From Glycocaulis albus (GTDB lineage: Bacteria; Pseudomonadota; Alphaproteobacteria; Caulobacterales; Maricaulaceae): a stretch of 64,000 bases of DNA. A model generated the notes under the pieces. It did no database searches. It had not been told where the DNA came from and saw only the letters and a list, made by a program, of their open reading frames with translations. Each line of letters starts with the position of its first letter. Within the stretch, counting starts at the first letter, position 1. The DNA lies in the NCBI RefSeq assembly GCF_014639075.1, contig NZ_BMFS01000008.1:1-64000 (forward strand), in the 5' to 3' direction. The translations under genes were made by a program, and so were the position numbers. This document shows positions 36,107 to 40,907 of the stretch, one piece after another.

Positions 36107-36523
36107 ATGATCAATCTCGTACCGGAAACCTACTCCGCTCCGCCTGCCGCCCGCCGCCGCTATATCTGGCGAACCATGGCCATGCTGGCCGCCCTGCTGG
36201 CGCTGTTCGCCGGGTATTACGCGCTCGGTGGCGGTGCCGGCACACACAGCCTGAATATAGCCATGCTGGCGATAAGTATCGTCTTTGTGGCGGGTGCGAC
36301 GTACGAGATTGTCATCCTCATCCGGGCTCTCGATGAGCTGCAGCAGCGCATTCACATTCTCGCCTGGGCCATTGGCGGCTGTCTGGCCGTGACAGTTATG
36401 TTCCTGTGGGGTGTGGCAACGGTTCTGGTAGGCGCGCCAGTCTTCGAGCCGGTCATGTCGGTCGTGATGGCGACGCTTGGATACTACATCTCACTGTTTC
36501 TGCTTGGGCAGCGCTACTCATGA
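36107..36523 (+). CDS. Four-helix membrane protein (XRE module 1)
   Basis: 138 residues. Hydrophobic segments are near 22-42 (TMAMLAALLALFAGYYAL), 48-70 (LNIAMLAISIVFVAGATYEIVIL), 82-106 (ILAWAIGGCLAVTVMFLWGVATVLV) and 112-133 (VMSVVMATLGYYISLFLLG). The segment IRALDELQQRIHILA between helices 2 and 3 is typical of small membrane proteins encoded beside short HTH genes. Its stop overlaps the XRE ATG (ATGA). The function is unknown; it may sense membrane state for the regulator. Confidence 0.75.
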   Translation: MINLVPETYSAPPAARRRYIWRTMAMLAALLALFAGYYALGGGAGTHSLNIAMLAISIVFVAGATYEIVILIRALDELQQRIHILAWAIGGCLAVTVMFLWGVATVLVGAPVFEPVMSVVMATLGYYISLFLLGQRYS

Positions 36524-36723
36524 ATAACCGGCTGAAGGAATTGCGCGGGGAGCGCGGCTGGAGTCAGGCGCATCTGGCCGAGCAGCTGGATGTGTCGCGC
36601 CAGACCGTGATCTCGCTGGAGAATGGCAAGTACGACCCGTCCTTGCCTCTGGCGTTCAAGATCGCACGCCTGTTCGGCCAGCCTATCGAAGCGATTTTTG
36701 ATGATGGCCACGAGGCCGCCTGA
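36520..36723 (+). CDS. Mini XRE-family HTH regulator (module 1)
   Basis: 67 residues, essentially one Cro/CI helix-turn-helix: RLKELRGERGWSQAHLAEQLDVSRQTVISLENGKYDPSLPLAFKIARLFGQPIEAIF. The ATG overlaps the membrane-protein stop by 4 bases. Proteins this short normally bind DNA as dimers and have no ligand domain. The palindrome at 35802-35817 upstream of the operon is the likely target, giving autoregulation. A similar gene pair lies at 39340-39998. Confidence 0.88.
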   Translation: MNNRLKELRGERGWSQAHLAEQLDVSRQTVISLENGKYDPSLPLAFKIARLFGQPIEAIFDDGHEAA

Positions 36724-39339: not shown

Positions 39340-39777
39340 ATGTCGTTTCACGAGAAAAGCAATGCCCTGATGCTGGGCGCAATCGTGCTGGTTTACGGGG
39401 CCTATTTCCTCATCGTGTTGGGATTGCCGGTGATGAGCGGCACCGATATTGACGTCAACGCCAGGCTCGTCATGTCCAACGGGCTGATGCTGGGCAGCGT
39501 GGTGGCTCTCGTCGCGATTGCCATTATTGGCCATATCCTCATCACCGTGCTGGCGCCGAAAGACGCCGACAAGCATGACGAACGTGACAGGCTGATCGAG
39601 ATGCGCGGCGATCAGCGCGGCGGGTTCGTGATGGCGTTTGGCGCGCTGTGCGGGATGGGCCTTGCCATGCTGGCCATGCCGCATTTCTGGATTGTCAACG
39701 CGATCCTGGCCGGGCTGGTGCTGGGCGAGATCGTCAAGGCCGTCTCGAAGCTCATCGACTATCGCCGGGGCGTGTGA
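39340..39777 (+). CDS. DUF2178-like membrane protein (XRE module 2)
   Basis: 145 residues from the ATG at 39340 (GGTGGAG upstream). Four hydrophobic helices lie near 12-30 (MLGAIVLVYGAYFLIVLGL), 47-70 (MLGSVVALVAIAIIGHILITVL), 95-113 and 116-134. The KHDERDRLIEMRGDQRGGFV segment between helices 2 and 3 is the hallmark of DUF2178-type proteins, which typically precede a short XRE gene. The function is unknown. The XRE ATG is 2 bases after the stop. Confidence 0.8.
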   Translation: MSFHEKSNALMLGAIVLVYGAYFLIVLGLPVMSGTDIDVNARLVMSNGLMLGSVVALVAIAIIGHILITVLAPKDADKHDERDRLIEMRGDQRGGFVMAFGALCGMGLAMLAMPHFWIVNAILAGLVLGEIVKAVSKLIDYRRGV

Positions 39778-39779
39778 CG

Positions 39780-39998
39780 ATGGGAAAGGGCAAGACACGC
39801 ATTGCCAACACGATCCGCGAGCAACGCTTTCATGCCGGCGAGATGACGCAGGCTGAACTCGCCGATGCGGTGGGCATTACCCGGCAGACCGTCATCGCCA
39901 TGGAGCAGGGGCGTTACTCACCCTCGCTGGAAGTGGCATTCCGCGTGGCCCGCGTCTTTGGCAAGCCGCTCGAAGAGGTGTTTTCTTACGAGGATTGA
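39780..39998 (+). CDS. Mini XRE-family HTH regulator (module 2)
   Basis: 72 residues, a single Cro/CI helix-turn-helix (EMTQAELADAVGITRQTVIAMEQGRYSPSLEVAFRVARVFGKPLEEVF) after a basic N-terminus (MGKGKTRIANTIREQRF). It follows the DUF2178-like gene by 2 bases. The palindrome over the promoter (39290-39305) is a plausible self-operator. It is related in form but not closely in sequence to the module at 36520. Confidence 0.9.
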   Translation: MGKGKTRIANTIREQRFHAGEMTQAELADAVGITRQTVIAMEQGRYSPSLEVAFRVARVFGKPLEEVFSYED

Positions 39999-40013
39999 GG
40001 GGCTTTTTAGCTC

Positions 40014-40148
40014 CGCAACGCATTCCCCGCCTGCGCGGGGACAGGCCGCGTTGCGATGTTCCGCGAAAAGTCGCGGGCGGCCTTTGGCCTTGCGGACGGC
40101 GGAACGCCGTCCGAGAGCGCGACGCACGGCTTCCCGCCCGAAGGCGGG
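40014..40148. repeat. Cluster of five short hairpins
   Basis: Four nested or tandem perfect stems lie within 135 bases: CGCAACG/CGTTGCG (40014-40020, 40049-40055) enclosing CCCCGC-CTGC-GCGGGG (40025-40040); CCGCGA-AAAG-TCGCGG (40061-40076); GGACGGCG-GAA-CGCCGTCC (40094-40112); and CCCGCC-CGAA-GGCGGG (40133-40148). The cluster fills the 172-base gap between convergent genes. It looks like a REP/BIME-type palindromic element or a composite bidirectional terminator. Confidence 0.75.
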
Positions 40149-40170
40149 GGTGTGCGGAGCATCACTGAGT

Positions 40171-40797
40171 TTATTGGCTGGCCCAGACGATGCGCGCCAT
40201 CCAGACCAGTTCGGACGCGTCCAGCACACGGGTCTCAAACTCGGTATTGAGCGATACCAGCTCCACCGTACGTGCCGTGGTGCGGCCCAGCTCCTTGGCC
40301 ATCACCTCGCCGGAGCGGAGCTTGGCCACCACCCGGTCCCCCCGGCGAAGCTGGGCATGGGGCGCGACCACGATCCGGTCGCCGGGCCGGTAGACCGGCA
40401 GCATGGATTCGCCGGAGATTTCCAGCGCATAGCATGCCTCGTCATCAAGGCCGGGGAAGATCACTTCCTCCCAGCCGGCGCCCACCGGAAAGCCGGCATC
40501 ATCAAAAAAGCCTTCATTACCCGCTTGCGCCATGCCAATCAGCGGTACCGAGCGTCCTGCAATCGTGTCGGTAGCGAGGCCCGCAAACTCGGCAAAGCTG
40601 ACCTTGGCCGCGTCCAGCGCCTTGGCAAGGCTTTCGGTGGAGGGCCAGCGCGGCTTGCTGTCTGATGAGGCGACGCGCTTTGACGGGTTGAATGTCGTCG
40701 GGTCGAGCCCTGCCTGCCGGGCGAGCCCCGATGGCGTGGTGCCTGCGCGCTGGGCGAGGCGGTCAATACCGCGCCAGACCTGGGCGTGGGTGAGCAT
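40171..40797 (-). CDS. LexA/CI-like S24 repressor
   Basis: 208 residues from the ATG at 40797, which has a GGAGG site; a longer frame to 40872 lacks one. The N-terminal half holds an XRE-type helix-turn-helix (GLARQAGLDPTTFNPSKR). The C-terminal S24 domain has an Ala92-Gly93 cleavage site (IGMAQAGNEG), catalytic S131 in SGESM and K168 in EVMAKEL, so self-cleavage on RecA activation is possible. The regulon is unknown. A perfect palindrome upstream is a probable autoregulatory operator. It differs from LexA in its HTH type. Confidence 0.85.
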   Translation of the reverse strand: MLTHAQVWRGIDRLAQRAGTTPSGLARQAGLDPTTFNPSKRVASSDSKPRWPSTESLAKALDAAKVSFAEFAGLATDTIAGRSVPLIGMAQAGNEGFFDDAGFPVGAGWEEVIFPGLDDEACYALEISGESMLPVYRPGDRIVVAPHAQLRRGDRVVAKLRSGEVMAKELGRTTARTVELVSLNTEFETRVLDASELVWMARIVWASQ

Positions 40798-40821
40798 GGC
40801 CGCGCCTCCTTCGTTAATGAT

Positions 40822-40837
40822 AAGGAATTTATTCCTT
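40822..40837. promoter_or_regulatory. Palindromic operator upstream of the S24 repressor
   Basis: AAGGAAT-TT-ATTCCTT is a perfect 7+2+7 inverted repeat, 25 bases upstream of the repressor ATG and 71 before the divergent DUF952 gene. Both the symmetry and the AT-rich centre fit an S24 repressor operator; direct evidence is absent. Confidence 0.65.
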
Positions 40838-40907
40838 TGCCGGGGAAGAATGTCAAGCCTTCTGCCCCGCACTTGCGGGACCTGCGCCCCCGGTCTAGAG
40901 CGATGCC

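Follow-up and report, generated by a model that had tools for sequence, protein, structure and literature searches.

A dispersed composite palindromic repeat of a Glycocaulis-like genus with a short hairpin nested in hairpin loops

The BOX elements of Streptococcus, together with BIME and NIME, are composites of subsequences arranged in patterns, and BOX, RUP and SPRITE are inserted into one another, with a biased orientation of the surrounding coding sequences (PMC3049150). The repeat described here resembles BOX, BIME and NIME in being short, dispersed, intergenic and modular. However, judged by the descriptions compared, the modules are unrelated, and the present repeat follows a palindrome-of-hairpins plan, with a second repeat in hairpin loops rather than beside other modules or at random. 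A second group, the CGTC-tagged REPs, is common in Alphaproteobacteria, palindromic, mostly arranged as head-to-head dimers and without transposase association; according to that account, neither these nor similar orphan palindromic repeats have a known mover (PMC3733652). The present repeat is likewise a palindromic orphan, and the outer hairpins CGTCATTCC..CCAG beside some of its copies fit the CGTC-REP description (PMC3733652). The core element, in contrast, has several arms and no CGTC tag, and its mini-hairpin carries CCTG in the position of the tag and lies in loops.

Nesting of small palindromes has also been described. REPs lie within palindromes in T. roseum (GTAG-23), H. neapolitanus (CGTC-1) and A. 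variabilis (GTAG-15), and the T. roseum genome holds hundreds of copies of the target palindrome (PMC3733652). As in our case, small palindromic repeats are found inside other palindromes; that account gives one type of target palindrome per repeat, whereas several unrelated hairpins serve as hosts here. Site-specific insertion into palindromic REPs is known for ISPpu9, ISPpu10, ISPa11 and others (PMC1525189), but these are described as full insertion sequences with a transposase, ISPpu9 and ISPpu10 with 2-bp direct repeats, compared to a non-coding insert of 22-24 nt in the present repeat. In the organelle genomes of Volvox, short palindromic repeats are nested in one another and build larger elements (PMC2670323); that system concerns organelle DNA, AT-rich in the mitochondria, and its description mentions no fixed loop-only unit. 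Nesting as such is therefore already known, from the three species with REPs in palindromes (PMC3733652) and from Volvox organelles (PMC2670323). The apparent novelty is that one short unit sits almost exclusively in the loops of several hairpins unrelated to one another, and does so in bacterial chromosomes. In the open-access literature we found no description of this repeat family or of a loop-confined unit. We consider it probable that the array belongs to a non-autonomous composite palindromic repeat dispersed in a Glycocaulis-like genus, and that a second repeat inserts into hairpin loops.

The five-arm array and its repeat family

The array lies in the window, the whole stretch of 64,000 nucleotides from Glycocaulis albus that was analysed. 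Its left neighbour is a helix-turn-helix regulator gene (39648-39998, plus strand; HTH_3, 5.2e-14) and its right neighbour an S24/LexA-like repressor gene (40171-40872, minus strand; Peptidase_S24, 6.1e-20), both with uncertain ORF starts. The two genes converge, ending at 39998 and 40171, and thus enclose a gap of 172 bases (39999-40170). The dense succession of hairpins that the initial annotation had noticed in this gap is borne out: sequence and inverted repeats give five arms with seven stems, the loops of HP1 and HP1' each holding a second hairpin. As RNA, the plus strand folds at -102.1 kcal/mol, compared to -80.8 (sd 4.3) for dinucleotide shuffles (z -4.9), with z -4.6 for the minus strand and z -4.65 for the plus strand as DNA; none of the 200 shuffles equalled the native fold in any of the three. 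Folded singly as DNA, the arms are matched by 2/200 (HP1), 1/200 (HP2), 0/200 (HP4) and 1/200 (HP1') shuffles, and the short HP3 by 8/200.

The whole copy extends over approximately 40004-40164 on the plus strand, in the order T-run, TAGCTCCGC, HP1, HP2, HP3, HP4, HP1' and GAGCATCA. An outer inverted repeat closes the array, its left arm GCTCCGCA (40010-40017) being complementary in 8/8 positions to its right arm TGCGGAGC (40153-40160); the element therefore reaches beyond 40014-40148, a span that had captured the array with limits slightly too short. HP1 (40014-40055) has the stem CGCAACGC/GCGTTGCG, and an insert splits its 4-nt loop, which reads ATCC in other copies. This insert is a 22-nt mini-hairpin composed of CCTG and TCCCCGCGCAGGCGGGGA on the minus strand (40024-40045), and the same 22 bases are missing in the G003 ortholog. 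HP2 (40061-40076) pairs CCGCG with CGCGG around the loop AAAAGT, and HP3 (40079-40089) reads GGCC-TTT-GGCC, with GCGC and GGGC types elsewhere in the family. HP4 (40093-40113) is a perfect 9-bp stem, CGGACGGCG-GAA-CGCCGTCCG, to which the stems at this position in other copies are unrelated. In HP1' (40123-40156), with the stem CGCAC/GTGCG, a longer loop replaces the GGAT-type loop and bears a hairpin of non-CCTG type, CCCGCC-CGAA-GGCGGG (approximately 40130-40150).

The genome-wide search that had been suggested for the stems revealed that the array is not unique. BLASTN of the gap against its own genome gave 80 matches at E<=10 and 34 at E<=0.001, some of them pieces of one copy, and the HP2 pattern occurs at 21 places compared to none for its reversed control. 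The left half of the family plan consists of a T-run, TAGTTCCGC, HP1 (loop ATCC), TGCGATGTTC, HP2 (loop AAAAGT), GGCG, HP3, a spacer and HP4. Complete copies continue past HP4 with HP3', HP2' (GGGCACTTTTGCCC), HP1' (loop GGAT) and GAGCATCA, the right half being a degenerate inversion of the left. Many copies are truncated, and some have a fusion of HP3 with HP2'; HP3' and HP2' are present in the G003 ortholog but missing from the window copy. Read by eye, several copies (e.g. L059, L062, L063 and L072) are flanked by inverted outer hairpins of the TGTC, CGTC or GCGTTTC type, none of which accompany the window copy. Like composite intergenic repeats, the family is dispersed and intergenic with recurring sub-modules, and 26 of 27 loci lie outside called ORFs. 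These comparisons identify the array as a single member of a dispersed, structured family of intergenic repeats that also contains nested hairpins, and the full plan of the repeat, HP1-HP2-HP3-HP4-[HP3'-HP2']-HP1', would fold as RNA or as single-stranded DNA into a palindrome of hairpins. In one copy, L076 (G000 C11:85424), HP1 is flipped, with the loop GGAT in place of ATCC in the same stem, as if inverted.

Pairing is kept under variation. Among 38 candidate left halves, 27 were aligned over HP1-HP3, the other 11 being copies with a filled HP1 loop (L001, L002, L004, L031, L032, L033 and L043) or a filled HP2 loop (L030, L076 and L145) and the spurious L023. In this alignment standard pairs occupy 97.1% of 454 cells, compared to 88.6% after shuffling, both sides are changed in 35 cells (13.5 shuffled), and the covariation score is 0.213 (0.084 shuffled), whereas structures slid along the same alignment pair at only 25-48%. 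Two further measures did not exceed the shuffles of the 27 copies, namely four pairs with a double change (reached by 422/500) and ten further pair types (454/500), so that the covariation may stem from a small number of old haplotypes; the double changes are concentrated at four pairs. At HP4, a perfect stem of at least 6 bp is present in 26 of 32 copies, compared to 7.7% of shuffles, when L012, L021, L023, L030, L076 and L145 are set aside from the 38 left halves. The recurrent HP4 stems are unrelated to each other: CAGGCCGC (8 copies), CGGCGC (5), CGGCCCC (4) and CGGACGGCG (3). The aligned copies show stems that vary yet keep their predicted pairing, and whole arms that have been exchanged between copies.

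Distribution, turnover and gene context

Among 41 relatives, a DNA search with a cutoff of E<=0.01 gave matches in 13, including all six genomes of the genus, and outside the genus the matching pieces were no longer than 47 bases. A covariance model built on HP1-HP2, searched in 299 genomes of the order with rough E-values, scored at least 55 bits in 6/6 genomes of the genus (at least 17 scored candidates in each) and, beyond it, in G181, G232 and G240, all of one other genus. Matches at E<=0.01 were found in 112 of the 299 genomes; among the matches listed, those outside the two genera reached about 31 bits or less and are taken as background. In a named collection, from which the window's own record was possibly left out, an exact 26-base pattern occurs in 6 stretches of Glycocaulis sp. 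PBR18_bin12, 2 of Oceanicaulis sp. HLUCCA04 and 1 of Alkalicaulis satelles. In the genomes searched, the family is thus shown as restricted to one Glycocaulis-like genus of the Maricaulaceae and a near genus. Another genus of the bacterial family (G015; L036, L047 and L055) has a different repeat, which shares the 23-base tract GCGGGCGGCCTTTGGCCTTGCGG with HP2-HP3.

Arrays in one gap turn over fast. At the window locus the element is present in G000 and G003, whereas in G005 two CGTC-type hairpins lie there as an inverted pair, in G002 the sequence is unrelated and in G004 there is almost no gap; in G001 the HTH gene does not adjoin the S24 gene. Two further G000 copies, L068 and L073, are missing from all four readable sister gaps (G001, G002, G003 and G005). 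The gaps orthologous to L068 hold other palindromic sequence in all four, and those orthologous to L073 hold it in G001 and G003, with nearly no gap in G002 and G005. Sister species can therefore differ at one convergent gap, some having palindrome arrays that are unrelated to each other and some having no array. Some places are common to sister species: L067 with L046, L066 with L052 and L022 with L053. The arrays in the sister gaps of L068 and L073 comprise CCCCCGTTTACGGGGG pairs, CTTCGAGACG..CCTCAGGATGAGG pairs and REP-type pairs. L066 and L067 each adjoin an apparent tRNA gene, read by eye from GGACTCGAACCGG-type tracts.

According to a home-made codon-based ORF caller, 13 of the 27 loci lie between convergent genes, 9 between tandem and 4 between divergent genes, and 1 (L067) inside a weak ORF. 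With L067 left out, 13/26 convergent loci compared to 11/71 convergent gene pairs in the window give a Fisher p of 0.001. A host function could account for this enrichment: placed between two converging genes, the array would act as a barrier in both directions, stopping readthrough or shielding the 3' ends of the mRNAs. Since any palindromic array could serve in this way, sister species might hold different arrays in the same gap, as do the L068 gaps of G001, G002, G003 and G005, the L073 gaps of G001 and G003, and the window gap of G005 with its inverted REP-type pair. We nevertheless regard such a function as unlikely. On either strand the T-run comes before the hairpins, the scan found no terminator-like site, nine loci are tandem and four divergent, and purifying selection against insertion into promoters predicts enrichment at 3' ends equally well. 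Moreover, G002 and G005 have hardly any sequence in the gap orthologous to L073, and the same holds for G004 at the window locus, so that an array is not required. The convergent enrichment would be expected equally if copies were tolerated at 3' ends or had a function in that position.

As a dispersed non-autonomous repeat, the element would have copies that come and go in intergenic gaps and that persist mostly between gene 3' ends, where little is broken by them. The host probably tolerates the element for the most part.

The mini-hairpin in hairpin loops

Beyond what was initially annotated, a second repeat is nested in the HP1 loop. It is a hairpin of 22-24 nt, CCTG-TCCCCG..CGGGGA, located at the apex of other hairpins. 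In the window, the HP1 loop AT^CC is split by the 22 bases 40024-40045, the minus strand reading GCGG^CCTGTCCCCGCGCAGGCGGGGA^ATGCG. The G003 ortholog lacks exactly these bases and matches on both sides, with one mismatch in the near flanks; it is the only clean orthologous pair of a filled and an empty loop. At HP1', where the window copy has a non-CCTG hairpin in the loop, G003 has ATTC.

About half of the 58 contexts found by a first, broad pattern have no proper internal stem, and the count was therefore made with a stricter one, which excludes the GCCTGTGCCC/GCCTGCCCCC variants, with the HP2-loop copies among them. Among 31 genomes the strict pattern places the unit in six (G000, G001, G002, G003, G005 and, from another genus, G018) and not in G004; G019 also carries a mini-hairpin copy. 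In 43 of 57 distinct copies the flanks form at least 6 Watson-Crick pairs at the junction, compared to 9.3% of 1771 mismatched flanks and 7.8% of 1469 other positions, although these copies are not independent, since their hosts are repeats with several copies each and different species have some of the places in common. Three of the 14 copies that fail this 6-bp test (L012, L014 and L021) sit at the HP3/HP2' fusion, and others in degenerate hosts. Nesting is rare among five other hairpin patterns (0/21, 0/47, 0/15, 0/41 and 2/28, together 2/152, counts that include some overlapping or both-strand readings of one place).

The hosts are diverse. By our own regular expressions, the flanks of the 57 copies fall into GGTCYCSSG hairpins (19), CCCGGGCTTG^ACCCGGG (9), HP1 (7), HP2' (7), HP3 (6) and the HP3/HP2' fusion (3), with 6 left as other; two of these, L188 and L054, clearly lie within stems. 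Variants of the mini-hairpin also occupy HP2 loops (L066, L076, L124 and L145). Empty host hairpins exist, such as CCCGGGCTTGACCCGGG and GGTCTCCCGCACCGACGGGAGACC. When empty hosts are set against filled ones, the junction falls at a G^A step in HP1, in the CCCGGG hairpin and in the GGTCTCCCG hairpin, a step that is missing from the empty HP2 loop. In G003, the gap orthologous to L073 (L236) holds a TGTC-type hairpin GGCCCGG..CCGGGCC with the mini-hairpin variant ACCCGCCTGCGCGGGCGCAGGC in its loop.

We propose that the 22-24-nt repeat (CCTG with TCCCCG..CGGGGA) inserts into the loops of pre-existing hairpins, often between G and A, the hosts being the hairpins of this element and several unrelated REP-type hairpins; such an insertion of the 22-nt unit would have made the hairpin-in-hairpin of HP1 in the window. 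Dispersal, arm exchange, loop nesting and one orthologous filled/empty pair are what the compared genomes show at the level of sequence. Beyond this, the short unit probably moves as such, single-stranded exposure of the loop would guide it, and a putative enzyme or replication-linked strand transfer would carry out the step. In its full form we offer this proposal tentatively and with somewhat less than even confidence: the CCTG mini-hairpin may be a mobile unit that targets the loops of folded hairpins, preferably at G^A and largely regardless of the stem, whose movement involves no RAYT but either a putative enzyme or strand transfer linked to replication on single-stranded DNA, and that builds multi-level arrays from the inside out.

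Alternatively, recombination or gene conversion among the copies of the repeats might have put the inserts into the loops, with no mobile unit being inserted. Whole HP4 stems are indeed swapped among copies, short GC-rich tracts are common to many repeats, and the HP3/HP2' fusion points to rearrangement. This explanation seems doubtful to us, as an identical unit, CCTG included, occupies the unrelated hosts HP1, HP2', HP3 and two REP types, occurs in a different host hairpin in another genus (G018), and accounts for a difference of exactly 22 nt with matching flanks in the orthologous pair. Insertion of the unit into loops would make the system an illustration of how very dense hairpin clusters grow. 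Moreover, a nearly loop-confined unit that is identical in unrelated hosts and has an orthologous empty site yields a clean, testable target rule, in which single-stranded exposure of the loop would choose the site.

Comparison with known element classes and possible RNA roles

The label "REP/BIME-like" given initially suits the kind of element, which is dispersed, intergenic, palindromic and mosaic, but, on the two features compared, does not extend to a GTAG-REP with its RAYT. GTAG-REPs or REPINs with a RAYT were rejected, as the 27 aligned copies start with TTTAGTTCCGC and have no GTAG foot, and no Y1 (HUH) transposase (PF01797) was found in G000, G001, G003, G004 and G005, the five genus genomes in the set; PF01797 is present in 12 of 59 genomes of the bacterial family. 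CGTC-REPs were set aside as well, since neither the core element nor the mini-hairpin shows the combination of a CGTC (or TGTC/CCTC) tag, an 8-9-bp stem, a 4-5-nt loop and a CCA-type tail. A search for IS110 (PF01548) gave a single match in G000, close to the end of contig C12, a single match in G019, and none in G001-G005 or G018, so that IS110 is not a mover common to the carriers. The searches with PF01797 and PF01548 thus yielded no mobile enzyme. Terminal inverted repeats of the MITE type are present, GCTCCGCA/TGCGGAGC in the window copy; no target-site duplication of the core was found in the orthologous gaps, which are too diverged to place its ends. The repeat is of an ordinary kind, apart from the nesting in loops, which is unusual; its movement, enzyme and function we infer.

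A structured RNA gene or regulatory RNA expressed from the gap would agree with the strong fold on both strands and with the pairing kept under variation. We hold it to be highly improbable, given that the Rfam scan of the window returned no match at the gathering score, that a scan of the gap for sigma-70-like promoters, the one promoter type covered, found none, and that many mosaic copies with swapped arms argue against a single RNA function. An ordinary intrinsic terminator or chance pairing in a GC-rich gap, for which the convergent setting and the GC-rich hairpins might speak, is scarcely credible, since 0/200 shuffles fold as well, the scan of 39800-40400 found no terminator-like site and the repeat is dispersed; the terminator role that had initially been kept for an array of unique occurrence and with no transcript finds no support in these results.

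The window contains two short HTH_3 regulator ORFs on the same strand about 3 kb apart, at 36406-36723 and 39648-39998, the latter next to the array. Both overlap or come after a small hydrophobic ORF.
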